IMG/VR virus record: IMGVR_UViG_3300042879_003994 | Span: 1-64,000 of that record | From: a virus | Direction: 5' to 3' (one strand) | Length of the DNA stretch: 64,000 bases | Shown: positions 11,051 to 50,014 of the stretch, in pieces | How positions within the stretch are numbered: the first letter of the stretch is position 1 | How the letters are laid out: every line of letters starts with the position of its first letter | Notes under the pieces: model-generated | Databases searched by the model: none | What the model saw: the letters and a program-made list of their open reading frames with translations, nothing else | What the model was told of the DNA's origin: nothing | Position numbers and translations under genes: made by a program

Positions 11051-11055
11051 TCTCT

Positions 11056-12621: not shown

Positions 12622-12626
12622 AATAT

Positions 12627-12654
12627 ATTATATGTTATTTATTGAGTAAATCAA
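12627..12654 (-). promoter_or_regulatory. Sigma70-like promoter
   Basis: Minus strand TTGATT (12654-12649), 16 bp, TATAAT (12632-12627), five nt before the ATG at 12621. Confidence 0.6.
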
Positions 12655-22921: not shown

Positions 22922-23311
22922 GGGCCTGAATTTGGTTTCGATTTTAGTAATAGGAATTAGAATGCAAGTAGAGGTTTAGGTGGGTCTCTTTAAAAAACCT
23001 TAAAAGTATTAACTGCCAAAACAGCCAAATACAAAGGTCATATCTCTGCTAGAGTTTCTCTAGTCGAGGAGACCGTTTCTGTAGCTTAAGTTCTACAGCG
23101 TGATTACCATGACACATCTATTGGATAATTGCGTATTTAGATGTCTCTGATTATAAAGTTTTTTTATTCTTTATTGTCATTGTATTCAAAATAAACTCGC
23201 TTAGTATGTTTGTTCTTTTCCCTATACAAAGCTAAAAATAAAAAGAAATAAACTTGTAGTATTTTAATTTAAATTATCTAAAAGACCTCGGTTCAACTCC
23301 GAGCAGGTCCA
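22922..23311 (+). ncRNA. ssrA: Transfer-messenger RNA (tmRNA)
   Basis: Rescues stalled ribosomes and tags the nascent protein. The acceptor stem pairs GGGCCTG (22922) with CAGGTCC (23304-23310). The T-arm is CTCGG-TTCAACT-CCGAG. The 5' part GGGCCTGAATTTGGTTTCGA matches the tmRNA D-region pattern. Helix 2 pairs TGCAAGT near 22960 with ACTTGTA near 23255. A resume GCC codon at 23015 opens a 24-residue tag, AKTAKYKGHISARVSLVEET then VSVA, with TAA at 23087-23089 inside a CTGTAG/CTACAG hairpin, as in helix 5. CCA is not encoded. About 390 nt, one piece. Confidence 0.92.
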
Positions 23312-23363: not shown

Positions 23364-24665
23364 ATGATCATAGAAAATGATAAAGTAGTATTAGTAGATT
23401 TAGATGATGTATCTAGCGCTACTTTTGCCGGTACATGTACTTCATGCGGTGGAGAAAATAGTTATTTCTCAAGAAAAATGGGAGATTTATATTATATAAA
23501 TGTATCAGCAAATAATTCGGGACCATTTACATCAAATGCAAAGGCATCTTTTGATCCAAAAGGTAAAATATTGCCAGGAACTGTAAAAGTATATACATGC
23601 AGAAAAGATGAAAAACCTCCAGTATTTGTTTCAAATACCTTATCTGAAGTTGAACAAAATATTACATTTTTCTATAACGCTTTTAGAACAACAGATACAG
23701 CGCTAGATGCAGATTTAGTCTCAAAAATGGCTTTAGCAATGAAAGAGTATTATGTATTTGGAGATACTAAGAAAAAATGCGAAGAACAAATGTATAAAGA
23801 TTTTCCAACCAAAATCTATCAATCAAAAGCATTTGGACCATTATTAGAAAAATGGACGAATCTTAGATTTCCAGTTTCATTTTATAAGCAAGCAATTAAA
23901 GATATTAGAACTGTTTATACTCCAGATATAAACATTACATGTAAGCCAATGATTTCAATGTGCCCAGATGGTTCAAATGCAACGATAACAGTAGTTAAAA
24001 AAGATGGAACAACTGAGACTTATTGTAAATCTGCACTTATAGTAATTAATAGAAGTTCAGATTTTGGTTATCGTATTAATAAAATTGTAACAGGTGACGA
24101 TTTAGAAAATACCGCTTTATCAAACTGGTCTGAGTATCTATCAGCAAATAGTTCAGCGTATCAACAAGGCATTTTAACTAGGGCGGAGGCAGCACTTAAT
24201 AGTACGCTTCCAAATAGAGTAATTACTTATAAACCAGCCGGTGAAAATGGAGCAATATTTAGATTTAGACTCTCAAATAGTTTAAGTAATGTATTTAGTA
24301 TACAAGTTGCAATTCCAATTGGTTCTGGTCCAGAATTTGGTCAAAATTGGTTTTATACACCAGTTACAACATTTGCTGTTAGCATACCTGCCATCGCTCG
24401 AATGTATAATCAATATCAAAATTTATTAGCCAATCAAAGAGCTTTAGCTGAAGCACGAAGAACGGCGAATAATGCAGCAATTATAAATCCAGATCCACAA
24501 GTTACAACGCCCCCAACAACGATAGATTACAACGTGGATAATCCAGTAAATACTCCCCCAGAGTTTCCAGTAAATCCAAATATAACAGATCCTATAAATA
24601 ATGCAACCCCAGATGGAACTTACGGCGGAAATTCTGGAGCTTTTGATATAGGCGCTGACCAATAA
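23364..24665 (+). CDS. Hypothetical probable structural protein
   Basis: 433 aa. The N-terminal region has CTSCGG and a beta-type Gly/Ser/Asn-rich composition. Residues about 240-350 are regular (GILTRAEAALNSTLPNRV, PIGSGPEFGQNWFYTPVTTF). The last 70 residues are Pro/Asn/Thr-rich low complexity. No domain is recognised. A virion surface or fibre role fits the composition and the possible late promoter but is not shown. Confidence 0.6.
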   Translation: MIIENDKVVLVDLDDVSSATFAGTCTSCGGENSYFSRKMGDLYYINVSANNSGPFTSNAKASFDPKGKILPGTVKVYTCRKDEKPPVFVSNTLSEVEQNITFFYNAFRTTDTALDADLVSKMALAMKEYYVFGDTKKKCEEQMYKDFPTKIYQSKAFGPLLEKWTNLRFPVSFYKQAIKDIRTVYTPDINITCKPMISMCPDGSNATITVVKKDGTTETYCKSALIVINRSSDFGYRINKIVTGDDLENTALSNWSEYLSANSSAYQQGILTRAEAALNSTLPNRVITYKPAGENGAIFRFRLSNSLSNVFSIQVAIPIGSGPEFGQNWFYTPVTTFAVSIPAIARMYNQYQNLLANQRALAEARRTANNAAIINPDPQVTTPPTTIDYNVDNPVNTPPEFPVNPNITDPINNATPDGTYGGNSGAFDIGADQ

Positions 24666-24699: not shown

Positions 24700-24721
24700 G
24701 TTCAATAATACATTATTGAAC
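24700..24721. repeat. Perfect 10-bp inverted repeat over a start codon
   Basis: GTTCAATAAT-AC-ATTATTGAAC. It covers the TTG start codon (24716) of the first glycan-operon gene. It is AT-rich with no T-tract, so it is not a typical terminator. It could be an operator or an mRNA hairpin masking the start. Confidence 0.7.
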
Positions 24722-25681
24722 ATACTTTGGCCAGATATTCATAAAAATCTCACAAGAAATATAGCAAAAGCATTCTCCTTGCTTGGACATAATCTCATTT
24801 TACCAAGCGATGAATATATACCAACAAATTTACCACCAAAACAATTTAATCAATGGGTTTGGAATACTTCTTGGACTCAAGAAAAAATAAACCTAGAATT
24901 CTCCACTAATAATATTAAAGTATTAAATAAAGAACAAATCCTTGATCTTAAACCAGAAGTAGTATTTATTACAAGTTTTGAGAGCCAGTTCGAAATTCTA
25001 AATGAGATTTGGCCGCACCTTAAAGATAAAAGTAAACTAGCTTGCTATAGCGGAAATGATTATTGGGATGGAGCGTACCCATTTTATATTATTAAAAATT
25101 ATTTATGTGCAGATTATGTTGGTTATATACTAGCCAACAAATATAAAGTAAATCATCTTTATTACAAACCTTGGATAGATTATGATAGATGTACTTTTGA
25201 TGGACCAACGGATGGCAATATAATTGGGGTCTATATCTCAGAATATGAAAAGAACTTTAATCAAGAATATAATATGAGTCGCGAATTACAGAAAATAACA
25301 CCATATATAGATTATCATTATCATACGAATAGTTCTCAAGAAGAGCTTACTAAAACTTTAAAATCAAGTATAGCTACCCAACATATCAAACATCTCGAAG
25401 GATATGGGATAGCAATTATTGAAAGTATGGCTTGTGGAAAACCAGTATTTATGCATCGTAAAATGGCGCAAAATAAAAGTCTTATGCAGTGGAGCATAGA
25501 GAATGTAACAGCCTTATTTTTTGAAAGTGAAATTGAATATATCGCTAAATTAAAAGCTCTATACGAAAGCAAAGACTATAGATATTTTCTACAGAATACC
25601 ACGGCTTATGTAATTCGTCAAATTATAGATAACCAAAGAGAAACGGAAAAGCTTGGACATTTTCTTAATAATCTAGTATAA
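24716..25681 (+). CDS. Glycosyltransferase, GT-B fold
   Basis: 321 aa. HLEGYGIAIIESMACGKPVF is the donor-site signature of family 4-like transferases. The N-terminal half is the acceptor domain. TTG start inside a perfect dyad; no ATG is available nearby. It is the first gene of the long glycan operon running to about 39.4 kb. Donor sugar unknown. Confidence 0.75.
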   Translation: MNILWPDIHKNLTRNIAKAFSLLGHNLILPSDEYIPTNLPPKQFNQWVWNTSWTQEKINLEFSTNNIKVLNKEQILDLKPEVVFITSFESQFEILNEIWPHLKDKSKLACYSGNDYWDGAYPFYIIKNYLCADYVGYILANKYKVNHLYYKPWIDYDRCTFDGPTDGNIIGVYISEYEKNFNQEYNMSRELQKITPYIDYHYHTNSSQEELTKTLKSSIATQHIKHLEGYGIAIIESMACGKPVFMHRKMAQNKSLMQWSIENVTALFFESEIEYIAKLKALYESKDYRYFLQNTTAYVIRQIIDNQRETEKLGHFLNNLV

Positions 25682-25689
25682 TTTTCATA

Positions 25690-26526
25690 GTGAAAATTTG
25701 GCTCTGCGGTATCACTCAAGATGAAAAGCAGAATATTGATGATATGACTAAAGATATATATCAATATTTTGATGGTCTTATTTTTGTAGATGGAGGATCA
25801 AAAGACGGGACGTTGGAAGTATTAAATGCAAGAAAAGGACAAGGAAAGATCATAAATAGAGAATGGTCAAATGACCACGATCTTCAAATGAATGGCTTCT
25901 TAAGATCAAATGTAATGCAAAATGGTGATTGGTTTATTATTCGCGATAGTTGTGAAAGATTGAATATTGATTGGACTAAAAATTTACGTAATTTTATAGA
26001 AAATTTCTTGGATAAAAATAAAATAAATAGCTGCGTTGATAGACAAAAAGCTTTTCTTGTTAAGTATTTTGATGATATGATATTCCAAGGTAGCCCACAT
26101 TGGGGATTGCAAGGTATGCGGCCAGGTTACATTGATCTTTATGAATATTATGGTAAAAATCAGCAGTTATTTGCATGGGAAGAAAGACCATCTCAAAGAA
26201 AACACTATATTGATAGCGATATGAAGTATTACTTTGTTTATGGAAGATCAAATCATTGCGTACTTCATTATTATGACAATGGCAAAACTCCAGAAAAATA
26301 TCAACAGCAAGAAGAAATTAGACAAACATTTAGAAGATATTGTGAAAGTTTAAATATTAAATTTAGCCTAGAGTCATTAAAAAATTTTTGGAGAAAGAAT
26401 TCAATTGATGAAAAAATGAAGTTCTTTATCAATAACGAAAGGCTTATTAGAAGATTCTATAGATTAAATATTTTAAACCATTCGCTAGATCTAATTGATT
26501 CATCAGAAGAATGGAAGCTACAATGA
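25690..26526 (+). CDS. Glycosyltransferase, family 2-like
   Basis: 278 aa, GTG start. FDGLIFVDGGSKDGTLEVL is the GT-A nucleotide-binding pattern of family 2, followed by GDWFIIRDSCERL in place of a classic D-x-D. The C-terminal part is basic and aromatic. It overlaps the next gene by 4 nt. Confidence 0.75.
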   Translation: MKIWLCGITQDEKQNIDDMTKDIYQYFDGLIFVDGGSKDGTLEVLNARKGQGKIINREWSNDHDLQMNGFLRSNVMQNGDWFIIRDSCERLNIDWTKNLRNFIENFLDKNKINSCVDRQKAFLVKYFDDMIFQGSPHWGLQGMRPGYIDLYEYYGKNQQLFAWEERPSQRKHYIDSDMKYYFVYGRSNHCVLHYYDNGKTPEKYQQQEEIRQTFRRYCESLNIKFSLESLKNFWRKNSIDEKMKFFINNERLIRRFYRLNILNHSLDLIDSSEEWKLQ

Positions 26527-27422
26527 AGCTTATAGATTGTTTTATGTATTTTAATGAAAAGGATATAGCCTATCTTAGAATTAAGGAATTATATGATGTT
26601 GTAGACTATTTTATAATTAACGAAGCCACAAGAACTCATCAAGGGCAAGATAAACAGATATCTTTTTGGAAAGACGACAGACTCCAAGAATTCAAAGATA
26701 AGATAATTTATTCATCAATAGAGCTGGACGGAAGATTTGATGATTTTATGCCTAAATTTTTCCCAGACGCAAAGATTGGCGCAAAAGAACACGAGCAGAG
26801 AATAAGGCTTTTTGAGCAAATTGAAAAATTAAATTTATCAAATCTAGACACAATAATGATATCAGACTGCGATGAAATACCTAATAAAAATGTATTTCAA
26901 GAAATGATTAATTACCCAATAGTAGCATTGAATCAAATGTTTTTTGTTCACTACATTGATGTCTATACAAATAAAAATGTAACTGGAACAGTAGCATGTA
27001 AATACGAAGGACTAAAACATCTTAATAGTTTATCTAATAATATGGGTCTTCAAATATTAAGAAGAGATAAAGATTTTATGCCAAGGATAGAGAATGGAGG
27101 CTGGCACTATTCTTACATGGGAGGAGCCAAATCAGTTAGTCAAAAAGTAGTATCAACATACGATGGTAATTTAAATTCTCAATGGAAAACGGAAGAAGCA
27201 TCTCAAAAATTAATCGATGATAGCATTAAGAATAAACAAAGCCCATTCTCTCAAGAACCAATTAGTATCTTAGATTTTAAGTACGCAACATTTGCCGAGT
27301 TAAACTTTATAACAGCAAAACAAGGAGGATGGCAAAAAGCTTCAGCAAGATGTCAGTTACATCCTAAAGTTTTAGAGTTAGATTTTAATGGAGATTTTGA
27401 GCATCTAAGATATAAAAAATAA
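26523..27422 (+). CDS. Glycosyltransferase, family 17-like
   Basis: 299 aa from the ATG at 26523, which overlaps the upstream TGA (a longer ATG at 26511 is possible). MKLIDCFMYFNEKDIAYLRI, then DYFIINEATRTHQG, IMISDCDEIPN and NGGWHYSYMGG reproduce the family 17 (N-acetylglucosaminyltransferase-type) pattern. The Asp-Cys-Asp is the likely metal site. Confidence 0.78.
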   Translation: MKLIDCFMYFNEKDIAYLRIKELYDVVDYFIINEATRTHQGQDKQISFWKDDRLQEFKDKIIYSSIELDGRFDDFMPKFFPDAKIGAKEHEQRIRLFEQIEKLNLSNLDTIMISDCDEIPNKNVFQEMINYPIVALNQMFFVHYIDVYTNKNVTGTVACKYEGLKHLNSLSNNMGLQILRRDKDFMPRIENGGWHYSYMGGAKSVSQKVVSTYDGNLNSQWKTEEASQKLIDDSIKNKQSPFSQEPISILDFKYATFAELNFITAKQGGWQKASARCQLHPKVLELDFNGDFEHLRYKK

Positions 27423-27423
27423 A

Positions 27424-28128
27424 ATGAATAATCCTTTTGATTTTTTTGAAGAAATTTATTGTATCAATCTTTCATATAGAACCGATAAATGGAAATCTTG
27501 TTTAGCGCAATTTGAAAAATTAGGCATACATAATAGAGTTGAAAGATTTAATGCTATAAAATTTGAAGGCGCACACCCAAATGTTAATATACGTTCAGCA
27601 GGATGTTTTGCTTCTCATAGAGCCGCAATTAATTTAATTAAAGAACGTAATTTAAATAATGCTTTAATTTTTGAAGATGATGTTGAATTTGTAAATGATG
27701 TAAATAAATATTTACCATTATCGATAGAAGAATTAAAGAAACAAAGCTCATGGGATATATTTTATTTAGGCATGCATGTCGGATATGGATTTGATATCTC
27801 TAGGCCAAATGATATTCCATTACAAAGAGTTAGTCAAAATCTATTACAAGTAAATGTAGCTTTATGCGCTCATGCTCAAGCCTATAGTAGAGAAGCCGCG
27901 GAGATTATTAGTTCAAATATTCCAGAAGGACAGGAGATTATACCTTGGCTTCAAAAAAATGAAAGCGTAGATGGATGGCTAATGAGAAATATCTTGCCTA
28001 GGAAAAAATCATTTTCTACAAATGAAATACTCGCGACTCAAAAAGAATGTTTTTCAGATAATAACCTAGTGGTTACGAGATTAGACAAACATTTTATTAA
28101 TGAGTTTAATAAGCTTAGACCGCTATGA
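27424..28128 (+). CDS. Glycosyltransferase, family 25 (LPS type)
   Basis: 234 aa. IYCINLSYRTDKWKSC at the start, GCFASHRAAINLI and NALIFEDDVEFV (metal site E-D-D) are hallmarks of family 25, the beta-galactosyltransferase-type enzymes of LPS synthesis. It overlaps the fucosyltransferase-like gene downstream by 4 nt. Confidence 0.82.
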   Translation: MNNPFDFFEEIYCINLSYRTDKWKSCLAQFEKLGIHNRVERFNAIKFEGAHPNVNIRSAGCFASHRAAINLIKERNLNNALIFEDDVEFVNDVNKYLPLSIEELKKQSSWDIFYLGMHVGYGFDISRPNDIPLQRVSQNLLQVNVALCAHAQAYSREAAEIISSNIPEGQEIIPWLQKNESVDGWLMRNILPRKKSFSTNEILATQKECFSDNNLVVTRLDKHFINEFNKLRPL

Positions 28129-28937
28129 TTACTTTTTCTAAATTAGGTTATTACGGAGCCATTGGAAATCAATTGTTTCAATATTCTACATTATATTCAA
28201 TAAGTAAATTAAATGGTTATGATATAAAAATTCCAAACACACAAGAACATTTTGAAGAAGCCACTCGAAGAGTTCAACACTATTTCTTAAATTGTTTTAA
28301 GAATATATATGCCGAAATTTTAAATGAAAGCGATTTGAGCCTGATTAAGCATAAGGCCCATTGGGGATATCCAGCCCTTTTTAATCCAGAAGTACTTAGG
28401 ATACCAGATTATACGGATTTAGAGGGTTATTTCCAATCTTATAAATTTTTTGAGGACTTTAAAAGTGATTTACTAGATCAATTTCAGTTTAAAGATTCCA
28501 TAGTAGATTCAGTTTCTAATAAATATAATTTTAATTTTGATAACCTTTCTTCAGTTCATCTTAGATGTGGAGATTATATAGGAAGAGATAATCATCATCC
28601 AATAATGAATAAAGCTTATTACGAGAAAGCTTTTGAAATAGTGAATGTAGAAAATTATTTAGTATTTTCAGATACAATTGATTACGCAAAACAAATCTTT
28701 AGTAAATTTAAAGATATTAATTTTACATACATAGAGAATAATCATGCATTCGAGGATATGTACATTATGTCTAATTGCCAAAATAATATCTTAGCAAATA
28801 GTAGTTTTGCTTGGTGGTCGGCGTATATAAATAAAAATAATAAAAAAGTAATAGCTCCATCTAATTGGTTTGGACCAGCTTATAATGGTCAATGGAAACT
28901 CGATGACCTCATTCCCCAAAATTGGACAATATTGTGA
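28125..28937 (+). CDS. Alpha-1,2-fucosyltransferase-like, family 11
   Basis: 270 aa. GAIGNQLFQYSTLYSISK at the N-terminus, SVHLRCGDYIGRDNHHP (the GDP-fucose motif with H-x-R-x-x-D) and ILANSSFAWWSAY are the three family 11 blocks. It would transfer fucose or a related 6-deoxyhexose from a GDP-linked donor. The presence of Gmd in the same operon supports a GDP donor. Confidence 0.82.
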   Translation: MITFSKLGYYGAIGNQLFQYSTLYSISKLNGYDIKIPNTQEHFEEATRRVQHYFLNCFKNIYAEILNESDLSLIKHKAHWGYPALFNPEVLRIPDYTDLEGYFQSYKFFEDFKSDLLDQFQFKDSIVDSVSNKYNFNFDNLSSVHLRCGDYIGRDNHHPIMNKAYYEKAFEIVNVENYLVFSDTIDYAKQIFSKFKDINFTYIENNHAFEDMYIMSNCQNNILANSSFAWWSAYINKNNKKVIAPSNWFGPAYNGQWKLDDLIPQNWTIL

Positions 28938-29803
28938 ATAAAAAAATATGGAACATACTTGATGGTCATTTTGCTCATGAAAAATATTCTGTAGCTGGAA
29001 GAGATTCAGAATATATAATTTGGGATAGGAATCTAACTAATTTAAATAATCCAACGTTTTATTCTCATATGGAGATGTTTAAAATAGACAGCCTTAATAC
29101 ATTAAGAGACAATTCATATGGTTTAATTTTTGAATCAAGAGGGATTGATCTACAAACATATAATTCTGTAGAACAGTTGATATCAAAGTTTAATAAAGTC
29201 TTTACTCATAATTCGGAGTTTCTTAAAAAATATCCAAATTGCAAATGGATTCCAGGCGGGGGTATTTGGGTCGGAGGAAGAAAAGACACACCTCACGCAG
29301 AAGGCGAAATAGCCATACAAGAAAAAAGCAAACTCTGCTCAATGGTTTCATCTAACAAACAAATGTGCCAAGGACATATGACAAGATTAGTAATCATGTC
29401 AGTCTTGAAAGATAATCCCAAGGTTGATAAATTTTTTGGTATAGGTAGTCATCAAGATAATAAAGGATGGATACCTATATTTAGGTCATTAAAGGATTAT
29501 ATGTATTCTATAGTAGTTGAAAATTTTGTTGATGAACTATACATAACAGAAAGAATATTAAATTGCTTTGCCACGGGTACAATTCCAATATATCTAGGAG
29601 CATCAAATATAGGCGAAATATTTAATATAGATGGAATTATCCATTTGAATTCATTAAGAAGTGTAGAAGAACTTAATAATTTAATTGATAATTTAACTCC
29701 AGAATATTATTATAATAGAATGGATGCAATTAAAGACAACTTTGAAAGATGCCTAAAATATAAATCTATAGAAGATTATATATATTCAAACTATTTAAAA
29801 TGA
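28934..29803 (+). CDS. Family 10 (alpha-1,3-fucosyltransferase)-like transferase
   Basis: 289 aa from a GTG at 28934 that overlaps the previous TGA (GTGA). Residues about 195-225 read YSIVVENFVDELYITERILN followed by CFATGTIPIYLGA, the conserved donor-binding motif of family 10. Earlier FNKVFTHNSEFLKKYPN also fits. It adjoins a family 11 enzyme, so two fucosyltransferase types lie side by side. Confidence 0.75.
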   Translation: MNKKIWNILDGHFAHEKYSVAGRDSEYIIWDRNLTNLNNPTFYSHMEMFKIDSLNTLRDNSYGLIFESRGIDLQTYNSVEQLISKFNKVFTHNSEFLKKYPNCKWIPGGGIWVGGRKDTPHAEGEIAIQEKSKLCSMVSSNKQMCQGHMTRLVIMSVLKDNPKVDKFFGIGSHQDNKGWIPIFRSLKDYMYSIVVENFVDELYITERILNCFATGTIPIYLGASNIGEIFNIDGIIHLNSLRSVEELNNLIDNLTPEYYYNRMDAIKDNFERCLKYKSIEDYIYSNYLK

Positions 29804-30567
29804 GCAAGACAAGCATTAGCGATACTCAGAAATATAAAAATGCATGTAAAATGGCAACGATAAGTGATTTTCATTTTGATTTCTTTAAAAAAGATCAAGC
29901 TTATACAGAAATATTAGAGCATGTAAATCAAGAGCAAGGACAGATGTATAAAGATTATTTAGATATACATTTTTCTGACTATAAAACCAAGCTAGATAAA
30001 TTTAAAGAAAACGATATACATGGTAGTCCAGCGGTTTTTAATTATAATGATATAGGATTAATATCGCCAACAACACTAAGATACATTAAGGTATTATCAG
30101 ATCTAAAGAATTTATATGGATCTCTAGATAATTTTAATATCGTAGAGATAGGAGTTGGTTATGGTGGACAATGTAAAATTATAACTGACTTCTTTAATAT
30201 TAGCAAATATTATCTAATTGATCTTGATGAGGCGACAGATTTAGCTTTAAAATATCTTAATAAACTTAATGTTAGTAAAGCAGAGGCAATGAGATTTGAT
30301 GAAATAGACACAGTAAATTTAAAGTTTGATCTAGTTATAAGTAATTATGCATTTACAGAATTAAATAGAGATATACAAGATATATATTTAAAAAATATAG
30401 TCACACAATCTAGTAGAGGTTATATAACTTGTAATTTCATTAGTCAATATTGCAATATAAATTCTTATTCATTACAAGAGCTAGAACTAAAATTAAATCA
30501 ATTTAATCTTAAAAAGTTTCAAGAATTTCCTTTAACACACAAAGATAATCTTATACTTTGTTGGTAA
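29800..30567 (+). CDS. Putative sugar O-methyltransferase
   Basis: 255 aa. IVEIGVGYGGQCKIITDFF is the SAM-binding motif I; YLIDLDEA and DLVISNYAFTELN follow as motifs II and IV. The upstream block SPAVFNYNDIGLISPTTLRY is typical of the putative sugar O-methyltransferases of surface-glycan clusters. It would cap or decorate a glycan residue. It overlaps its upstream neighbour by 4 nt. Confidence 0.75.
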   Translation: MSKTSISDTQKYKNACKMATISDFHFDFFKKDQAYTEILEHVNQEQGQMYKDYLDIHFSDYKTKLDKFKENDIHGSPAVFNYNDIGLISPTTLRYIKVLSDLKNLYGSLDNFNIVEIGVGYGGQCKIITDFFNISKYYLIDLDEATDLALKYLNKLNVSKAEAMRFDEIDTVNLKFDLVISNYAFTELNRDIQDIYLKNIVTQSSRGYITCNFISQYCNINSYSLQELELKLNQFNLKKFQEFPLTHKDNLILCW

Positions 30568-30569
30568 AT

Positions 30570-31271
30570 ATGAATTTTACTTTTGGTATTATAACGACCA
30601 AACAAAATCCAGAATTAGAATTGGAGTCAATTATTAATTCTATTAAAGACTTATCCATACCAAATTATGAAATTATAATAATAGGTGGAAATATTAGTAA
30701 GGAATCAGAAAACTTGCAGATTTTTGCGTTCCAAGAGAGCGCAAGCGGAGCATGGATTACAAAGAAAAAAAACTTAATAACAGAAAAAGCTAAATACGAG
30801 AATGTTGTCTATATGCATGATTACATTTTATTTGATAAGGATTGGTATTCAAATTTTATAAAATTTGGAAATGACTTCAACTTATGCATGAATCAAATCT
30901 TAAATGAAGATGGAAGGAGATATAGAGATTGGACTTTATGGGCAGAATCAGCAGATCAGATTGGAGTACAGAATCCATACTACTTATTACCTTATGAGAT
31001 AAAATATCTTTCAAAATTAATGTATTTTTCTGGGGCATATTGGGTAGCTAAAAGAGATGTCATGAAAGAGTTTCCCTTAAATGAAAATTTATTTTGGGGG
31101 CAAGGCGAAGACGTTGAATGGTCAAAAAGAATCAGAGAAAAATATAATTTTAGTATAAATAAAGATTCGATTGTTAAATTAAATAGATATAAAGATCCAG
31201 CCTTTTTAGCCTGCAATAGACTCGACCACATTAATCAGCTTGATGCCTCAAGAAAATTTCATAATCTATGA
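30570..31271 (+). CDS. Glycosyltransferase, GT-A fold
   Basis: 233 aa from the ATG at 30570. MNFTFGIITTKQNPELELES starts a GT-A domain. VVYMHDYILFDKDWY supplies the acidic metal-site region and FWGQGEDVEWSKRI is the acceptor-base motif of galactosyltransferase-type family 2/27 enzymes. Donor unknown. Confidence 0.7.
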   Translation: MNFTFGIITTKQNPELELESIINSIKDLSIPNYEIIIIGGNISKESENLQIFAFQESASGAWITKKKNLITEKAKYENVVYMHDYILFDKDWYSNFIKFGNDFNLCMNQILNEDGRRYRDWTLWAESADQIGVQNPYYLLPYEIKYLSKLMYFSGAYWVAKRDVMKEFPLNENLFWGQGEDVEWSKRIREKYNFSINKDSIVKLNRYKDPAFLACNRLDHINQLDASRKFHNL

Positions 31272-32209
31272 ATAAGAAAATAACTATAAATTATTTTCCG
31301 CATTCTAGATTTTACTATGTATTTAGTCTAATTAAAGAACTAGCAAAATTAAGAGATGAAACAAAGTCAATCATCAAAATAAACCTTTTATTTTCTCATA
31401 TAGATAATGAAGTAATGCGTATTAGAGACTTGTTTCAAGAGCGTAACATAGAAGCGGAATTATTCGGTATAAATGGTGGAGATTATATGGCAAAAGTAAA
31501 TACCGCAATAACTAATACGCAGACTGATTTCTTTGTCAAATTAGATGAAGATGTTTTTCTTTCTAGCGACGTATGGGAATATTTCTTTAATAATTATGAG
31601 AAATTAAATGATAGTAACGTAGCTTTTATGACTCCTATTTTAAGTACTGGAATACCAACCACAGATAGTTTTATAGAACAATTCTTCAAAGAAGAAGATA
31701 AAAAGAAAATATATGATATTTTTTTAAAAGTTACTTTTGGAGAAATATGGGGAGTAGACTATTCTATATTAAATAAATTTACCATACAAGCCTCTAAATG
31801 GGATTCAAAAGCCTTCTATAAAGAGGTAGCGAATATAAATCATTTCTATAAAGGAATTCATCCAGTAAGATTATCTTCTGAAGCTCAAATCTTTATAACA
31901 GATTATATAATCAATAATATACATAAACTTTTTGAAAATAAAGATTTATCTATATCAAAAGAAAAATTTCCATATCTTTGCAATAATATAGTCATGCTCA
32001 AGACAGATACATTTAAAAAAATCGTAGATGATAAGTCTTTATTTAAAGATGGATTTGATGAAGTGCCAATTAATCTCTATATGCAAAATAATAATTTAAA
32101 TATGTTAATAATTAATAATGGATTTGGAGTACACCCTTCCTATAATACAATAGGCCATCATTATAAACTGATATCAGATAGATTTTTTGAACGAATAAAT
32201 ACCCTATGA
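31268..32209 (+). CDS. Probable glycosyltransferase, GT-A fold
   Basis: 313 aa. TDFFVKLDEDVFLSSDVW carries a D-E-D metal site typical of GT-A enzymes, preceded by an NTAITNTQ helix. The rest is not assignable to a family by eye. It overlaps both neighbours by 4 nt, inside the glycan operon. Confidence 0.6.
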   Translation: MNKKITINYFPHSRFYYVFSLIKELAKLRDETKSIIKINLLFSHIDNEVMRIRDLFQERNIEAELFGINGGDYMAKVNTAITNTQTDFFVKLDEDVFLSSDVWEYFFNNYEKLNDSNVAFMTPILSTGIPTTDSFIEQFFKEEDKKKIYDIFLKVTFGEIWGVDYSILNKFTIQASKWDSKAFYKEVANINHFYKGIHPVRLSSEAQIFITDYIINNIHKLFENKDLSISKEKFPYLCNNIVMLKTDTFKKIVDDKSLFKDGFDEVPINLYMQNNNLNMLIINNGFGVHPSYNTIGHHYKLISDRFFERINTL

Positions 32210-33582
32210 TAAAATTAATTATATTTGATTTAGATGGAGTTTTAATAGACGCAAGAGAAATTCATTACGAAGCTTTAAATAGAGCTATAGCTTTAGTTGG
32301 CAGCGAATTTATTATAAATAAGAAAGAACACTTGTCTACATATGATGGATTGCCAACAAAGAAAAAGCTAGAACTATTAACAAAAAATAAACAATTACCA
32401 CTAGAAAAACATCAGATAATTTGGGACAATAAACAAAAATTTACCATTCAAGTAATAAATGAAACAGTTTCATTTGATACTAGAATTCAAGATATATTAA
32501 GAAAGTTAAAAGATAAAGGCTACAAAATATATGTTGCATCAAATTCAATAAAAGAAACAATTAAGACAATTCTTCTTAAAAAAGGATTTATGGAATATAT
32601 TGATAACTATTATTCCAATGAAGATGTGAAGAATCCAAAACCTAAAGCTGAAATATATCTAAAGTGCATGATAGACGCTGGAGTAGATCCAGATGAATGT
32701 CTAATAGTCGAAGATTCAATAGTTGGCAGGAAAGCGGCTTTAAAATCTGGAGGAAATCTGCATCCAGTATTAAATACAAGCGATATAGATTTTGACAAAA
32801 TAGTAGATAATATTGATAAAATTAACAATAATAAAGTAATGAAGCCTAAATGGAAAGACGATAAAATGAAAGTATTAATTCCAATGGCTGGAGCAGGAAC
32901 TAGGTTTGAGAAGGCGGGCTATACATTCCCTAAACCTCTTATAGAAGTAAGAGGAAAGCCTATGATTCAAGTAGTTATTGATTGCATTGGTATTGACGCA
33001 AAACATGTATTTATTGCTCAAAAAAGTCATTATGAAAAATATAATTTAAAGGATACATTAAATTTAATTAGTCCAAATTGTGAGATAGCATTAACAGATG
33101 GATTAACTGAAGGTGCAGCCTGTACAACTTTATTAGCTAAACAATACATTAACAATGATCAGCCATTACTTATCGCGAACTCAGATCAATATGTGGACTG
33201 GGATAGTAATGAATTCATGTACTCTATGATGGCAGATAATATTGACGCTGGTATTCTCGTATTTGAATCAACTCATCCTAAATGGAGTTTTGCTAAATTA
33301 GACGAAAATGGATTTGTGTCCAAAGTCGCAGAAAAAAAACCAATAAGTAATTTAGCCACAGTTGGAATCTATTTTTGGAGAAAAGGCTCTGATTATGTAA
33401 AGTACGCAGAACAAATGATACGTAACAATATTAGAGTAAATAATGAATTTTATGTATGTCCTGTATTTAATGAAGCCATCGCAGACGGCAAAAAAATAAA
33501 AATATTTAAGATAGAAAATGATAAGATGTGGGGTATAGGCACTCCAGAAGATTTAAACTACTTCCTAGAAAATCATAAATAG
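32206..33582 (+). CDS. HAD phosphatase fused to a sugar-nucleotidyltransferase
   Basis: 458 aa, two enzymes in one. Residues 1-215 are a HAD/beta-phosphoglucomutase-like phosphatase (IIFDLDGVLIDA with D8 and D10, VASNS, NPKPKAEIY, IVEDSIVGRKAA). From M221 a nucleotidyltransferase begins (MKVLIPMAGAGTRF, FPKPLIEVRGKPMI, ANSDQYVDW, WGIGTPEDL). It could make a sugar 1-phosphate and activate it as an NDP-sugar; which sugar and nucleotide are unknown. Confidence 0.85.
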   Translation: MIKLIIFDLDGVLIDAREIHYEALNRAIALVGSEFIINKKEHLSTYDGLPTKKKLELLTKNKQLPLEKHQIIWDNKQKFTIQVINETVSFDTRIQDILRKLKDKGYKIYVASNSIKETIKTILLKKGFMEYIDNYYSNEDVKNPKPKAEIYLKCMIDAGVDPDECLIVEDSIVGRKAALKSGGNLHPVLNTSDIDFDKIVDNIDKINNNKVMKPKWKDDKMKVLIPMAGAGTRFEKAGYTFPKPLIEVRGKPMIQVVIDCIGIDAKHVFIAQKSHYEKYNLKDTLNLISPNCEIALTDGLTEGAACTTLLAKQYINNDQPLLIANSDQYVDWDSNEFMYSMMADNIDAGILVFESTHPKWSFAKLDENGFVSKVAEKKPISNLATVGIYFWRKGSDYVKYAEQMIRNNIRVNNEFYVCPVFNEAIADGKKIKIFKIENDKMWGIGTPEDLNYFLENHK

Positions 33583-34406
33583 TGAAAGAGTCTTGTATTA
33601 TTGCGCCTATTCATGCGCCACATTTCATACCATATGGTATAGACTTTGTACAAAGCTATAATAAATATTACGATGACGGAGATGTATTCTTAATATTCTC
33701 ATCAGAACAAGAAGCTAATATATTTAAAACCATCGCTGGTAATTTAAAATACCAATCTATTATATGTAATGAGGAAATTGGGCCAAGTCCAATAACTCAA
33801 AAGAAAATCTTTGGATTAAAGTATATATTTAATAATACCAACTTTACTAAAGTTGGAGTTATAGATGTAGACACGGCTTTTATTAAAACAATTGATTATG
33901 ATAGATGCTTTGATGATTTTATAAACAATAAAAAAATATATGCATGTTATTCAACAAAACATCCACATGTTAATTCAATTATAAAAAGCCCTCTTAAATT
34001 TTTTAATCAACAAGATAGTTTACTATTGTCAGAGTTAACTCACAACTTTAAAGGGTATTTCTGGTTTAATGACGTACCAGTTTACAGCAAAGAATATTTC
34101 TTAAATTTTATAGAATATATAAATTATGAAGAAAATAAAAGCAAGCTCGAATATATTGATTTTGATTTTATTATCTATGGATATTATTTATTAATTAATA
34201 ATTTAGCTCAGATAGAGTATTTAAAAATTAATGATCAGATCATTGATCTTCCATATGGTTTTTTAGAGCAACAACATCTGGTAAATAATATTGAATTTGA
34301 AAAAATAATTGAGACCTATAAACCCATGTGGCTAAAAATAGACACTCGCCCAGAAACAATGGAAAATGTCTTTATTAGGCTTCATATACATTCACCATAC
34401 AAATGA
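33582..34406 (+). CDS. Possible glycosyltransferase
   Basis: 274 aa, GTG start overlapping the previous stop. FTKVGVIDVDTAFIK gives a D-V-D motif flanked by hydrophobic strands, and FSSEQEANIFKTI precedes it. This fits a GT-A fold but no family is clear. Position in the operon supports a role in glycan building. Confidence 0.5.
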   Translation: MKESCIIAPIHAPHFIPYGIDFVQSYNKYYDDGDVFLIFSSEQEANIFKTIAGNLKYQSIICNEEIGPSPITQKKIFGLKYIFNNTNFTKVGVIDVDTAFIKTIDYDRCFDDFINNKKIYACYSTKHPHVNSIIKSPLKFFNQQDSLLLSELTHNFKGYFWFNDVPVYSKEYFLNFIEYINYEENKSKLEYIDFDFIIYGYYLLINNLAQIEYLKINDQIIDLPYGFLEQQHLVNNIEFEKIIETYKPMWLKIDTRPETMENVFIRLHIHSPYK

Positions 34407-34837
34407 AAATTATTTCTCATCGAGGCAATTTAAATGGCCCAGATAACAACAAAGAAAATTCAAAAGAAGCAATAATTGATGCAATGAATCATGGTTTTGA
34501 TGTAGAGATAGACGTATGGAATAAAAATAATAATTGGTATCTAGGTCACGATGAACCTACCTATAAAATAGATCAAAAATTTTTAGAAAATAAGAAATTA
34601 TGGTGTCATGCTAAAAATCTAAACGCATTAAATTTAATGTTAAAAAATAAAAAGATACATTGTTTTTGGCATCAAAATGATGATTATACGATCACCTCTA
34701 AAGGATACATCTGGACATATCCCAAGAAGAATGTCACAGATAGATCGGTAATTGTGTTAATAAGTAAAAACAATAAATTACCAAAATCTTTTGGTATATG
34801 CACGGACTTCCCTTTATTATATCTTAAGTTGATATGA
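34403..34837 (+). CDS. Short glycerophosphodiester phosphodiesterase-like protein
   Basis: 144 aa. MKIISHRGNLNGPD, then ENSKEAIIDAMNHGFDVEID and LGHDEPTYKID follow the GDPD pattern (H-R-G, E-N, E-x-D, G-H-D). Normal GDPD enzymes are about 250 aa, so this is a compact or reduced form. Such reduced forms occur in surface-polysaccharide clusters. Activity uncertain. Confidence 0.65.
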   Translation: MKIISHRGNLNGPDNNKENSKEAIIDAMNHGFDVEIDVWNKNNNWYLGHDEPTYKIDQKFLENKKLWCHAKNLNALNLMLKNKKIHCFWHQNDDYTITSKGYIWTYPKKNVTDRSVIVLISKNNKLPKSFGICTDFPLLYLKLI

Positions 34838-35808
34838 ATATCCTTTTAACTGGTGGACATGGCTTTATTGGTTCTAATTTTATTGAATTAATAATTAATT
34901 TACCACAAGTTAAAAATATAGTTAATATAGATTGTCCCAGCAGATATAACAGCGCAGCAAATAGAAGAAATGTTGAGCCATTTGATAATAATCCTAAGTA
35001 CCATTTTTATGACATGTGGCTTGAGATGCTTAACACACCGGATGATACTAAGAAATTCATTCAAATATTAAAGCAATTTGATATAACTCATATTATACAT
35101 TTCGCTGCAGAAACACATGTAGATACTTCTATAGATGATCCTATGAGATTTATAAAATCAAATATATTAGGGACTTTTAATCTATTAGAGGTTTGTAAAA
35201 TATTTCCACACATAAGATTTCATCATATTTCTACAGATGAAGTCTATGGAAGCTTGGGTTTAAATGGCAAATTTACAGAAAAAACTCCATACGCACCAAA
35301 TTCACCCTATTCAGCTTCTAAAGCTTCTAGTGATATGCTTGTCAGAGCTTACTATCATACATATAAAATTCCTATAACAATATCTAATTGCTCTAACAAT
35401 TATGGTCCAAATCAAAATTATGAAAAATTCATTCCAGTTGTCATAAGCTCAATTTTGAATAATAAGAAAATACCAGTATATGGAAATGGCAAGAATATAA
35501 GGGATTGGATATATGTCAAAGATCACTGCGAGGCTATTTGGGAAATAGTTATTAGAGGTAAGATTGGAGAAACATACAATGTTGGAGGAGAATGCGAAAA
35601 GGACAACTTACAGATAATTGATGATATCTGTAAAGTCATGAAAGTAAATCCAAAGGACTATATATCTTTTGTAGAAGATAGGAAAGGTCATGATTTTAGA
35701 TATGCTATAGATAATACCAAGATAAATAAAGAGTTAAGTTGGTATCCTACAACTAAATTTGAGGATGGGCTAAAACAAACTATTGATTTTTATAAAAGAA
35801 TATACTAA
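34834..35808 (+). CDS. rmlB: dTDP-glucose 4,6-dehydratase-like (RmlB)
   Basis: 324 aa extended short-chain dehydrogenase. GGHGFIGSNF binds NAD; FAAETHVDTSIDDP, STDEVYGS, and YSASKASSD (catalytic Tyr-x3-Lys) match RmlB. GKNIRDWIYVKDHCEA is the C-terminal block. It converts an NDP-glucose to the 4-keto-6-deoxy sugar. The nucleotide is inferred from the family. Confidence 0.88.
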   Translation: MNILLTGGHGFIGSNFIELIINLPQVKNIVNIDCPSRYNSAANRRNVEPFDNNPKYHFYDMWLEMLNTPDDTKKFIQILKQFDITHIIHFAAETHVDTSIDDPMRFIKSNILGTFNLLEVCKIFPHIRFHHISTDEVYGSLGLNGKFTEKTPYAPNSPYSASKASSDMLVRAYYHTYKIPITISNCSNNYGPNQNYEKFIPVVISSILNNKKIPVYGNGKNIRDWIYVKDHCEAIWEIVIRGKIGETYNVGGECEKDNLQIIDDICKVMKVNPKDYISFVEDRKGHDFRYAIDNTKINKELSWYPTTKFEDGLKQTIDFYKRIY

Positions 35809-35816
35809 AATAACTT

Positions 35817-36956
35817 ATGAGCATCAATATTCAAGAGACCTATTATGGTAAAAAAATAGATACTTGTAATATATTAAATATCGAAGATGCAAGTAAATTA
35901 ATTAAAAACAAGAATGTAATTGTTATAACTGGTGTTACTGGGCAAGATGGAAGCCATATGGTAGATTTTCTACTTAAGAATACTGATTATCTCATATTTG
36001 GTGGAGTTCGAAGATTAAGCGTATATAATCACGAAAACATTAGACACATTAAATCTGATAGATTTCATTTAATAAATTTTGATTTAACAGATTCTCACGC
36101 CATAGCTAGAACAGTAGAAAAATTAAAACCAGATTACTTTATTAATTTTGCTGCACAAAGTTTTGTAGCTAGTAGTTGGGACTTTGCTCGTCAGACTTGG
36201 GCAACAAATTCAACCGCTGTTTTAGATATCTTAGAAGCGATTAGATTATATAAACCTTCTTGTAGACTTTATCAGGCTGGATCAAGTGAGGAATTTGGAA
36301 ATGTTCAATATACTCCTCAAGACGAAAATCATCCACTTAAACCAAGAAGTCCATATGGAGCAAGTAAAGCTGCCTCTAGACAATTAGTTAAAGTATATAG
36401 AGAGTCTTATAATATCTATGCAATTCAAGGTTGGCTTTTTAATCACGAAGGTATTAGAAGGGGCGAGGAATTTGTAACAAGAAAAATAACAAAAAATGTA
36501 GCTAGAATCTACCACGCAATAAAAAGTAATAAACAATTCGAACCATTAGAACTTGGAAATATAGAAGCTAAAAGAGATTGGAGCGATGCGGAGGATTTTG
36601 TAGAGGGAGTATGGATGATGTTAAACCAAGATAAATATAATTCAAATTATGATGGTATACCAAAAGAATATATATTCTCATCAAATGAAACACATACGAT
36701 TAAAGAATTTGCAGAAAAAGCATTTAAATTTGCAGGAATAGAAGGCGAATGGATTGGTAAAGATGAACATACTGTATTCGTAGATCGCAGCAAGAGAATA
36801 TTAATACAAATAAATCCTAAATTCTACAGGCCAGCAGAAGTAGATATTCTATTAGGAAATTCTGATAAAGCAAGACAAGAGTTAAATTGGAAGCCAAAGA
36901 TTTCATTTGACAAACTAATCAAAAAGATGGTAGAATGGGATATATCTAATGTCTAG
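35817..36956 (+). CDS. gmd: GDP-mannose 4,6-dehydratase
   Basis: 379 aa. ITGVTGQDGSHMVDFLLK (NADP loop with the Gmd-specific GQDG), NFAAQSFVASSWD, GSSEEFGNVQ, PYGASKAASRQLVK and FNHEGIRRGEEFVTRKIT are characteristic. It makes GDP-4-keto-6-deoxymannose, precursor of GDP-fucose, GDP-colitose and GDP-perosamine. It starts with an extra 35 residues before the NADP loop. Confidence 0.92.
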   Translation: MSINIQETYYGKKIDTCNILNIEDASKLIKNKNVIVITGVTGQDGSHMVDFLLKNTDYLIFGGVRRLSVYNHENIRHIKSDRFHLINFDLTDSHAIARTVEKLKPDYFINFAAQSFVASSWDFARQTWATNSTAVLDILEAIRLYKPSCRLYQAGSSEEFGNVQYTPQDENHPLKPRSPYGASKAASRQLVKVYRESYNIYAIQGWLFNHEGIRRGEEFVTRKITKNVARIYHAIKSNKQFEPLELGNIEAKRDWSDAEDFVEGVWMMLNQDKYNSNYDGIPKEYIFSSNETHTIKEFAEKAFKFAGIEGEWIGKDEHTVFVDRSKRILIQINPKFYRPAEVDILLGNSDKARQELNWKPKISFDKLIKKMVEWDISNV

Positions 36957-38253
36957 AAAAGAAAAAATACTAAATTTCTTGCTTTCTCTTGAGAATGAGG
37001 AGAATCTATTCATACCTCAATTCTGTCATAATTTAAAAGATGTTAAAAATAAAGTATACTATGGTGGACCATCATATACAAAAGAAGAAATTGTAGAAGC
37101 AATAGACACATTGTTATTTGGAAAATGGCTTGCTAGTGGCGAAAATGTAGCCAAATTTGAAAAAGAATTCTCTAAAAAAATTAATCAAAAATATTCTGTA
37201 ATGGTAAATTCTGGAAGCTCTGCCAATTTAGTTATGATCGCAGCACTTAAGAAGCATCTCAATTGGAAAGACGAGGATGAAATATTAATATCTGTAGTCG
37301 GTTTTCCTACAACACTAAATCCAGTTATTCAGAATAATTTAAAGCCAGTATTTGTAGATATTGAATTTGAAACGTTAAATTTTGATCTAAATCAATTAGA
37401 AGCAAAAATTACAAAAAACACTAAAGCAATATTTATATCGCCAGTATTAGGAAATCCGCCAGATTTTGATAAACTAATTGAAATTTCAAAAAAGCATAAT
37501 ATACATTTAATACTTGATGGATGCGATAGTTTTGGAAGTAAATGGGATGGTAAACATTTAAATGAATATTGTATAGCTTCAAGTTGTTCTTTTTATCCAG
37601 CGCATCATCTTACTACTGGAGAAGGTGGCATGGTCTCTTCTGATATAGAAGAAGTAGTAAATCTAGCGAGGAGTTTTGCGTGGTGGGGCAGAGACTGTTA
37701 TTGTATAGGTAGTTGCAATTTATTAAAGAATGGAAGCTGTAATCAAAGATTTTCGAATTGGATTAAGGAAATTCCATATAACATTGACCATAAATACTTC
37801 TTTACGCAAATTGGCTACAATCTAAAACCTCTTGATTTACAAGGAGCTATAGGTCTAGTTCAATTAAAAAAGATGCAAGAATTTCATCTAAAAAGAGTCT
37901 CCAATAAAGATAAAATTCAAAATATTCTTAGTAGATTAGATGGACTTAAGTTTCCCTCTTTTTTTCCTAAAGCAGACATATCTTGGTTTGGAGTCCCAAT
38001 TATTTGTAGCGATTATCTATCAAAAAATAAACTAGTTAATTACTTGGAAGAAAATGGTATACAAACAAGAAATTACTTCGCTGGAAATATCTTGGTGCAT
38101 CCAGCATATAAGCATCTAGAAAATTGGGAAAGCTATACGAATGCAAATGCGGTGCTAGAAAAAGTATTTTTTGTTGGATGCTCTCCAACTATAAGCGAAA
38201 GCAATATAGAGTATTTGGCAAGTGTTATTGATAGATATGATACCAAAGATTGA
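36949..38253 (+). CDS. PLP/[2Fe-2S] sugar 3-dehydratase, RfbH/E1-like
   Basis: 434 aa DegT/AHBA-type fold. The usual PLP-binding Lys is replaced by His220 in SFYPAHHLTTGEGG, as in 3-dehydratases that remove the C3 hydroxyl. Cys192, Cys250 and Cys252 repeat the C-x57-C-x-C spacing known from the [2Fe-2S] enzyme E1/RfbH. The fourth ligand (Cys256 or Cys264) is differently spaced. It therefore probably makes a 3,6-dideoxy sugar. Whether it takes CDP- or GDP-linked substrate is unclear. Overlaps gmd by 8 nt. Confidence 0.85.
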   Translation: MSRKEKILNFLLSLENEENLFIPQFCHNLKDVKNKVYYGGPSYTKEEIVEAIDTLLFGKWLASGENVAKFEKEFSKKINQKYSVMVNSGSSANLVMIAALKKHLNWKDEDEILISVVGFPTTLNPVIQNNLKPVFVDIEFETLNFDLNQLEAKITKNTKAIFISPVLGNPPDFDKLIEISKKHNIHLILDGCDSFGSKWDGKHLNEYCIASSCSFYPAHHLTTGEGGMVSSDIEEVVNLARSFAWWGRDCYCIGSCNLLKNGSCNQRFSNWIKEIPYNIDHKYFFTQIGYNLKPLDLQGAIGLVQLKKMQEFHLKRVSNKDKIQNILSRLDGLKFPSFFPKADISWFGVPIICSDYLSKNKLVNYLEENGIQTRNYFAGNILVHPAYKHLENWESYTNANAVLEKVFFVGCSPTISESNIEYLASVIDRYDTKD

Positions 38254-39058
38254 TCTTTTTGGTGGAACAGGTTTTGTAGGTAGTAATTTTTATAGTCTAT
38301 ATAAATCAGATACATATATTCATCCTAGAGAACATAACGTTCCTTTCTATAAGAATATATTATATATGATTAGCACAACTGATAACTATAATGTTCTTGA
38401 AGATCCATATAAAGATATAAATGTTAATTTAACTAAACTGATTAATGTATTAGAAAATTGTAAAAATAAGGATATTGTTTTTAATTTTGTGAGTTCTTGG
38501 TTTGTTTATGGAGATGTAGAGCTTCCGGCTAAAGAAAGTTATTGCTGCAATCCCAAGGGCTTCTATTCAATTACAAAAAAATGTGCAGAAGATTTACTTA
38601 TAAGTTATTGTAAAACATTTAATATAAGATATAGAATACTACGGCTGGCAAATGTATACGGAAACAAAGACTGCGGTGTCTCAAAAAAAAAGAATGCTCT
38701 AACATATTTAATTAATCAGATAAAAGATAATCAAAATATTAATTTATATTTTAATGGAAAATTTATAAGAGATTACATTCATGTCGAAGATGCCTGTAGA
38801 GCTATAAAGCTTTGTATTGATAAAGGAAGTCTAGATGAAATATATAATATTGGAAATGGCGAACCTTTAATATTTAAAGATATTATAGACTATACTATTA
38901 AACAAACTAATTCAAAATCAACAATAACTGCCATAGATCAACCAGAATTTCATAAGATTGTACAGGTTAAAGACATGTATTTAGACAATGAAAAGATTAA
39001 AAAATTAGGATTTAAAAAAGAGATTGACATTTATCAAGGAGTTGATAGACTTATATAA
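38237..39058 (+). CDS. NAD-dependent epimerase/reductase (SDR), 3,6-dideoxy-sugar type
   Basis: 273 aa from the ATG at 38237. DLFGGTGFVGSNF binds the cofactor; NFVSSWFVYGD, FYSITKKCAEDLL (Tyr-x3-Lys) and LRLANVYG follow. Its place directly after an RfbH-like gene parallels rfbH-rfbJ, where the SDR reduces the 3-deoxy-4-keto sugar. GDP-fucose synthase or a plain epimerase are alternatives. Confidence 0.75.
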   Translation: MIPKIDLFGGTGFVGSNFYSLYKSDTYIHPREHNVPFYKNILYMISTTDNYNVLEDPYKDINVNLTKLINVLENCKNKDIVFNFVSSWFVYGDVELPAKESYCCNPKGFYSITKKCAEDLLISYCKTFNIRYRILRLANVYGNKDCGVSKKKNALTYLINQIKDNQNINLYFNGKFIRDYIHVEDACRAIKLCIDKGSLDEIYNIGNGEPLIFKDIIDYTIKQTNSKSTITAIDQPEFHKIVQVKDMYLDNEKIKKLGFKKEIDIYQGVDRLI

Positions 39059-39396
39059 TGTCCAAACATAAGCTTTGTCAGTTGATAGTAAAAAAATTTA
39101 TAAGAGGTAATATTAATTGGGCAAGAGAAATAAAAATTGCACAGAAATTAATTAAAAAGTTTAATTGTTTTGAATTCTGGAATAATTTAAAAGAATTAGG
39201 TAGTCCGCCTCCTTCATTAGCTTGGTTTCTTAAACCAGAAGGCAAAGCATTTCTTTTAAAAGAATATGAAGCATTTAAATTAAATTTAAATAAAGAAGAA
39301 GTTATATTAAGCAAAAATAAAATCGGAGAAGATAAAAATGTTTGTCAAAAGCCTAAAACTTTGGTACAATTTATAAGATATGGGAAGAAAACCTAA
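39058..39396 (+). CDS. Hypothetical basic protein
   Basis: 112 aa, Lys-rich, helical; FWNNLKELGSPPPSLAWFLK marks a Pro turn in the centre. It overlaps the recombinase gene by 17 nt, so it links the glycan and replication blocks. Family unrecognised. Confidence 0.6.
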   Translation: MSKHKLCQLIVKKFIRGNINWAREIKIAQKLIKKFNCFEFWNNLKELGSPPPSLAWFLKPEGKAFLLKEYEAFKLNLNKEEVILSKNKIGEDKNVCQKPKTLVQFIRYGKKT

Positions 39397-50012: not shown

Positions 50013-50014
50013 TT

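Follow-up and report, generated by a model that had tools for sequence, protein, structure and literature searches.

What does a phage build with sixteen sugar genes of its own, and onto which molecule is the product placed? The question is raised by a locus at positions 24716-39058 of a 64-kb stretch of viral DNA (positions 1 to 64,000 of the 73.8-kb IMG/VR record IMGVR_UViG_3300042879_003994; hereafter the window). This record is itself a fragment, as a 133.6-kb relative with matching genes suggests. A first reading of the DNA (the original prediction) had proposed a sixteen-gene phage glycan operon and had left virion, host lipopolysaccharide (LPS) and phage DNA open as targets. The operon was borne out: it consists of 16 open reading frames (ORFs), all on the plus strand, whose spacing ranges from -32 to +8 bp (Table 1). 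On sequence evidence throughout, the targets can now be ranked, the virion being favoured and DNA disfavoured, and we give about an even chance to the view that a virion protein is glycosylated in the cytoplasm, its glycan having a conserved inner and an exchangeable outer part.

Fixed ends and a variable middle

Relatives of the record were traced via the tail-tip protein, the E1-type dehydratase 36949 (genes are named by their first position) and the GT2-type glycosyltransferase 25690, and were aligned on the RecA-like flank. They were chosen by similarity to this record and most of them are fragments. In the RecA-anchored relatives, the locus sits at the same place. Presence of the conserved genes among 28 relatives and their median identities to the window are listed in Table 1; the counts include incomplete records, and three relatives (L170, L181 and L182) are without the 5' module of glycosyltransferases. 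At the 5' end, the GT4 and GT2 genes each have a median identity of 88%, and 25690 is 85-92% identical in near relatives. The 3' anchor is formed by the GDP-mannose 4,6-dehydratase (GMD) and the small gene 39058 and not strictly by the last gene, because the E1-type dehydratase and a short-chain dehydrogenase/reductase (SDR) come after GMD in the window. Between these ends the content is variable: 33582 was found in none of the 28 relatives, 31268 in one and 36949 in three, and the 376 genes of 26 operons fell into 120 families, 59 of which are singletons. Fixed flanks around a variable middle of glycosyltransferase and nucleotide-sugar genes are also how O-antigen and capsule loci of bacteria are laid out, as far as architecture alone is concerned.

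A distant relative (L218, positions 7016-13158 of the 39.8-kb record G040, RecA 42% identical) has a compact arrangement of ancestral appearance: a GT4/GT9 pair followed only by GT2, GT90, GMD and RecA. Since only GT2, GT90 and GMD are retained there ahead of the RecA flank, gene content suggests an old core of GT2 and GMD, with the remaining genes inserted between them. The Pfam GT90 family takes in protein O-glucosyltransferases. In the window, the corresponding split GT4/GT9 pair (50006/51943) adjoins the tail module; together with 16328, these are the glycosyltransferases that Pfam detects beyond the operon.

Enzymes of the operon

Pfam and NCBIfam matches were judged against curated cut-offs. 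The GT4, GT17, GT25, GT11 and GT10 assignments of the original prediction, as well as the fusion of a HAD domain to a nucleotidyltransferase, were all recovered above the Pfam cut-offs, and the sugar O-methyltransferase above that of NCBIfam. The GT-A label given to 30558, 31268 and 33582 could not be confirmed, no usable profile match being obtained. For 25690, the Pfam match remained below the cut-off (E 0.004) whereas the profile of its orthologues supported the GT2 call through matches to GT2-type protein glycosyltransferases. In the PDB, this profile matched GmaR, ThuS and SunS only (E 9.5e-8 to 7.6e-5). GmaR is a flagellin glycosyltransferase; ThuS and SunS are peptide S-glycosyltransferases. 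When the AlphaFold2 (AF2) model of 25690 was compared to solved structures by Foldseek, ThuS and SunS came first, at low TM. Profile and model are thus suggestive of a likeness to protein-modifying glycosyltransferases. Orthologue profiles of 24716 and 26511 gave no match in the PDB.

Neither 24716 nor 25690 has a match among 50,697 phage records. Cellular relatives of 25690 were searched with two short peptide patterns, and none of the 52 matches in genome contigs was a true relative; as the scan used only these two patterns, distant cellular relatives may be missed.

The nucleotide-sugar converters announced by the original prediction stood in part. Pfam families GDP_Man_Dehyd and Epimerase matched the 34834, 35817 and 38222 ORFs, and DegT matched 36949. 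The dTDP-glucose and GDP-mannose 4,6-dehydratases and the SDR were found as such. The best PDB matches of 35817 are GMDs, and the GSSEE and YxxxK motifs are retained in an alignment of 19 sequences; its score is under the NCBIfam equivalog cut-off for GMD (TIGR01472, 332.9 vs 415). The supposed aminotransferase 36949, on the other hand, turned out to resemble E1/RfbH-type dehydratases. Its nearest solved structures are the E1 dehydratases 3bcx and 3bb8 (E ~3e-79), with ColD behind. In the alignment with 3bcx, the segment SFYPAHH places a histidine where the lysine binding pyridoxal phosphate (PLP) would sit, and GCD, GRDCYC and a downstream cysteine are retained. With the PLP lysine replaced and the cysteines near GRDCYC intact, 36949 is, judged from these residues, a 3-dehydratase of 3,6-dideoxyhexose synthesis and not a transaminase. 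It falls short of the RfbH cut-off (NF011936, 381.6 bits vs 423) and is therefore to be taken as a relative of RfbH and not as a confident equivalog.

No CDP-glucose 4,6-dehydratase was found as partner for 36949, the 34834 product being a dTDP-glucose 4,6-dehydratase. The substrate of 36949 may consequently be dTDP- or GDP-linked, with the dTDP-glucose 4,6-dehydratase or GMD as partner. Among 80 E1-bearing loci from viral contigs, an RmlB-like neighbour was present in 32 and a GMD-like one in 8. The SDRs match GDP-fucose synthase weakly and none is above the cut-off, so that fucose is not established as the sugar derived from GMD, and the description of the operon as complete was too strong. 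Nor were genes for an E1 reductase or for the supply of GDP-mannose seen among the annotated proteins.

Destination of the glycan

Genes that would be needed for export of a glycan, for its transfer from a lipid carrier or for DNA modification were searched in 18 records, the longest of 133.6 kb, with 14 genomes as controls; the four lipid-carrier families were found in 9 to 13 of these controls. The initiating phosphoglycosyltransferases (Bac_transf/WbaP, PF02397; Glycos_transf_4/WecA, PF00953) were detected in 0/18 records (controls positive in 9/14 and 12/14). The flippase Polysacc_synt (PF01943) and the polymerase/ligase Wzy_C (PF04932) were equally absent from the 18 records, ABC-transporter families not being separately searched. 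A simple hydropathy scan of the 376 genes from the 26 operons revealed no protein with more than one hydrophobic segment, and hence no candidate for the membrane GtrA or polyprenyl-phosphate GtrB of the gtrABC seroconversion cassettes of temperate phages, although Pfam GtrA itself was not searched. L170, one of the relatives without the 5' module, encodes two HTTM membrane proteins. O-antigen synthesis of the Wzx/Wzy type is disfavoured by the missing phosphoglycosyltransferase, flippase and polymerase/ligase. Since neither lipid-carrier and export families nor polytopic operon proteins were found, the glycan is likely to be assembled directly in the cytoplasm, as far as the predicted proteins tell.

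For the acceptor, the order and identities of the sugars and the benefit to the phage, we infer the following scheme. The GT2 enzyme 25690, perhaps with the GT4 24716 and the 50006/51943 pair, would initiate the sugar chain, on an amino-acid side chain of a virion protein produced late in infection. The chain would be extended by the GT17, GT25 and GT11 enzymes and completed by the cassette glycosyltransferases (GT10 and others) and the methyltransferase, the phage reshaping the host's sugar pools to obtain the donors. Nearly all versions of the locus would obtain GDP-4-keto-6-deoxymannose from GMD, and the present record could in addition produce a 3,6-dideoxyhexose by means of RmlB, the E1-type dehydratase and the SDR. 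Swaps of middle genes between similar phages would alter the outer sugars, as a phage analogue of serotype switching, and the benefit could be escape from host surface recognition, or adhesion. A bolder form of this scheme, which we hold tentatively and below even chances, is a "serotype" system of the lineage's own, in which a lineage-specific glycosyltransferase would initiate on protein, the inner glycan would be conserved, and the cassette would set the outer sugars including 3,6-dideoxyhexoses, so that recombination of cassettes would re-type the virion with its proteins unchanged. These 3,6-dideoxyhexoses are otherwise familiar from bacterial LPS.

The Ser/Thr/Asn-rich proteins 11056, 23364 and 53927, put forward by the original prediction as acceptors, are poor candidates. 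They vary across relatives while the first glycosyltransferases and GMD stay, and a conserved virion protein is for this reason the better place to look for the acceptor. The 23364 family was tried and rejected: its members could be aligned at 16-22% identity only, and no usable AF2 model was obtained (pLDDT 39).

Glycosylation of a virion protein has a precedent in the chloroviruses, in which the capsid protein carries a conserved core glycan and glycosyltransferases are encoded by the virus (PMC7826918). Besides the missing lipid-carrier step and the PDB matches of 25690, this reading draws on the fixed ends with their swapped middle, on the reduced gene set of L218 and on the position of the 50006/51943 pair beside the tail module. 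Several observations nevertheless weigh against it in the present case. The search by family alignment and AF2 model of 23364 yielded no acceptor protein, and the operon adjoins recA and replication genes, not capsid genes. The match of 25690 to protein glycosyltransferases is weak (about 70-105 residues, 26-35 bits); its AF2 model has a pLDDT of 61 and a Foldseek TM of about 0.39, with GtrB and dolichyl-phosphate mannose synthase close behind. To our knowledge, no enzyme of the WaaE type, active on the LPS core, is in the PDB as a fair competitor to these matches. Soluble cytoplasmic enzymes can, moreover, build an LPS core too. Soluble glycosyltransferases of the phage would then extend or cap the host LPS core at the inner leaflet before it is flipped by the host MsbA; the infected cell would no longer be bound by competing phages or by released progeny, and the cassette would track host surface types. 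The GT25, GT11, GT10 and GT9 enzymes and those of RfbH-type 3,6-dideoxyhexose synthesis are typical of LPS loci, the conserved flanks and variable middle are O-antigen-like, and similar clusters of pelagimyophages (PMC7029224) and jumbo phages (PMC7824862) are read as LPS-directed in publications. We regard this explanation as the main rival, possible but rather less likely: phosphoglycosyltransferase, flippase, polymerase and ligase families were not found, nor any GtrA/B-like membrane protein in the operons, and the enzymes closest in structure to the most widely conserved glycosyltransferase modify proteins. It also presupposes an LPS-bearing host.

The high turnover of the cassette, its many private genes and the lack of single nucleotide-sugar steps would also be compatible with a pile-up of horizontally acquired host-type genes, altering host carbohydrate metabolism or cytoplasmic proteins with no single coherent glycan as product. 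The fixed site, the overlapping order on one strand and the first and last genes at core-genome identity in near relatives point instead to a selected, coherent pathway, and we consider such a pile-up unlikely. Still less probable, in our opinion, is a glycan placed on phage DNA bases as a protection against restriction. The neighbourhood of recA and replication genes is in agreement with this idea, but methylated, 6-deoxy and 3,6-dideoxy sugars handled by at least five glycosyltransferases exceed any DNA decoration that we know of. The thymidylate synthase/dCMP-dUMP hydroxymethylase family (PF00303) was above the cut-off in none of the 18 records, with a positive control in 9/14 genomes; this speaks against the hydroxymethylpyrimidine route, not all base-modification chemistries having been searched. 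Phages are known to glycosylate their DNA using several glycosyltransferases, according to the citation of Pyle et al. 2024 in PMC12619734.

Known systems and neighbouring genes

The original prediction had called the operon exceptional. This does not hold, since relatives have the locus at the same site and the cyanomyophages S-B05 and S-H68 have a similar cluster; publications also report clusters of glycosyltransferases for pelagimyophages (PMC7029224) and for jumbo phages (PMC7824862). Phage sugar clusters are thus already known. The S-B05/S-H68 cluster covers about 17 kb of one strand and includes, as in the window, an E1 enzyme (55% identical to 36949), a dTDP-glucose 4,6-dehydratase, SDRs, two GT11 genes and a GT25 gene. 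It differs in its T4-like Synechococcus myophage background and in an extra RmlC-type epimerase, a transaldolase-like gene and a nucleotidyltransferase, and relatives of 24716 and 25690 were not detected in the phage collection. The host recognition cluster of pelagimyophages (PMC7029224) and the polysaccharide clusters of jumbo phages (PMC7824862) are likewise variable islands of glycosyltransferase and deoxysugar genes. The pelagimyophage island, however, lies among the tail-fibre genes of T4-like phages, whereas the phage of the window has a lambda-type tail tip, and its locus lies between recA and a transfer-messenger RNA (tmRNA) with a variable gene. The window locus is further set apart by conserved glycosyltransferases at its 5' end and by GMD at its 3' end.

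Chlorovirus glyco-genes are not gathered in one operon. The chlorovirus PBCV-1 resembles the proposed model in its virus-encoded glycosyltransferases and in a core glycan common to all members (PMC7826918); it is an unrelated eukaryotic virus in which target and structure are proven, unlike here, and homology is not claimed. The fibril clusters of the Megavirinae contain 6 to 33 glyco-genes, rare bacterial-type sugars and clade-specific content (PMC10117803), but belong to giant amoebal viruses with different genes and experimentally shown sugars. We are not aware that a multi-sugar operon whose middle can be swapped lies behind the virion glycosylation of mycobacteriophages. In these, as Freeman et al. 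2023 are cited in PMC12619734, phage glycosyltransferases modify capsid and tail proteins.

As far as our searches reach, the new elements are the design of fixed flanks and swapped middle within a lineage, the lack of export machinery throughout this lineage and its lineage-specific conserved GT2. The lineage has many members in public viral metagenomes and none of its tested genes has a close relative in the annotated phage collection; no publication on it was found in the open-licence literature. Phage sugar-gene clusters have so far been read by default as tools altering host LPS. Glycosylation of the virion, for its part, predicts that the particle carries sugars, the outer ones varying from one close relative to the next. 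If it is true, phage particles would have variable glycan types, with a bearing on host recognition, grazing and antibody recognition; if it is wrong, LPS remodelling by soluble enzymes would be the answer.

Table 1. Coordinates of the operon genes, their flanks and related features in the window. Relatives are counted out of 28; medians are identities to the window.
Feature	Position	Strand	Evidence
Phage tmRNA, landmark upstream of the locus, outside the glycan pathway	22922..23311	+	ARAGORN; Rfam RF00023 106 bits
433-aa fast-evolving protein ahead of first glycosyltransferase (GT), operon membership uncertain	23364..24665	+	Remote relatives at same place in several relatives
Conserved GT4-like glycosyltransferase (Glycos_transf_1)	24716..25681	+	Pfam 29.7 bits; 18/28, median 88%
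GT2-type, most widely conserved GT of the locus, candidate initiating protein glycosyltransferase	25690..26526	+	22/28 at >=40%; median 88%
GT17-like glycosyltransferase, conserved 5' module	26511..27422	+	PF04724 60.8 bits; 18/28, 55-89%, median 83%
GT25-like glycosyltransferase, two allele classes	27424..28128	+	PF01755 39.7 bits; 17/28, 48-62% or 81-89%, median 52%
GT11-like (fucosyltransferase family) glycosyltransferase	28125..28937	+	PF01531 71.4 bits, phrog_2644; 17/28, 55-84%, median 68%
GT10-like (fucosyltransferase family) glycosyltransferase, variable cassette	28922..29803	+	PF00852 46.3 bits
Putative sugar O-methyltransferase, variable cassette	29800..30567	+	TIGR04371 89.7 bits, cut-off 44
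Cassette gene, candidate GT-A enzyme	30558..31271	+	No Pfam match; 3/28
Cassette gene, GT-A per original prediction only	31268..32209	+	No relevant match; 1/28
Beta-phosphoglucomutase-type HAD fused to sugar-1-phosphate nucleotidyltransferase	32206..33582	+	HAD_2 + NTP_transferase
Cassette gene private to record	33582..34406	+	No profile match; 0/28
Small phrog_34507 protein, GDPD-like N-terminal motif by eye only	34403..34837	+	Sole database match phrog_34507
dTDP-glucose 4,6-dehydratase (RmlB)	34834..35808	+	TIGR01181 405.9 bits, cut-off 365.1; PDB 6bi4
GMD, conserved 3' anchor	35817..36956	+	PF16363 350.9 bits; 26/28, median 86%
E1/RfbH-type 3-dehydratase of 3,6-dideoxyhexose synthesis, pyridoxamine phosphate (PMP)-dependent, DegT fold	36949..38253	+	PDB 3bcx E=3.1e-79
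SDR sugar epimerase/reductase	38237..39058	+	PF01370 103.8 bits; Rossmann motif GGTGFVG; ORF opens at GTG 38222, ATG 38237 likelier start
Conserved 112-aa protein between operon and recA	39058..39396	+	27/28, median 75%
RecA-like recombinase (identified from sequence), fixed 3' flank/anchor	39380..40522	+	Median 90%
Lineage-core GT4 + DUF4214, C-terminal end resembling N-terminal part of GT9	50006..51928	+	Kept in relatives covering the site
Lineage-core GT9-like C-terminal part	51943..53094	+	PF01075 30.7 bits; kept in relatives covering the site

Upstream of the locus, the tmRNA was present in 12 of the 13 recA-anchored relatives scanned. Its tag of 24 residues is basic (AKTAKYKGHISARVSLVEETVSVA) and ends with SVA instead of LAA. 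When part of the tag was searched as a degenerate pattern, 63 viral contigs matched and no genome contig did (one genome per species, 84,980 species), and the tag gave no pointer to the host; the phage tmRNA may tag host proteins differently. The following gene, 23364, is replaced in relatives by very divergent proteins (16-22% identity where aligned) and lies on the opposite strand in L180.

Elsewhere in the window, 11056-12222 and 53927-55063 encode Cys/Ser/Asn-rich paralogues that are 54% identical, and the 53927 site is empty or otherwise filled in most relatives. An adenylosuccinate synthase (9029-10021) and an IMP dehydrogenase/GMP reductase-like enzyme (12651-13763) have homologues in relatives. 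The idea that 9029 could be a PurZ enzyme of 2-aminoadenine synthesis was rejected, PurA models scoring 262 bits vs 100 for PurZ. Adjacent genes for tRNA-Ser(act) and tRNA-Asn(gtt) are found at 6249-6415, and the same pairing occurs in the relative G032. Finally, a BspA-type leucine-rich repeat protein (LRR_5) is encoded at 5450-6244, with relatives of varied length in tmRNA-anchored contigs.

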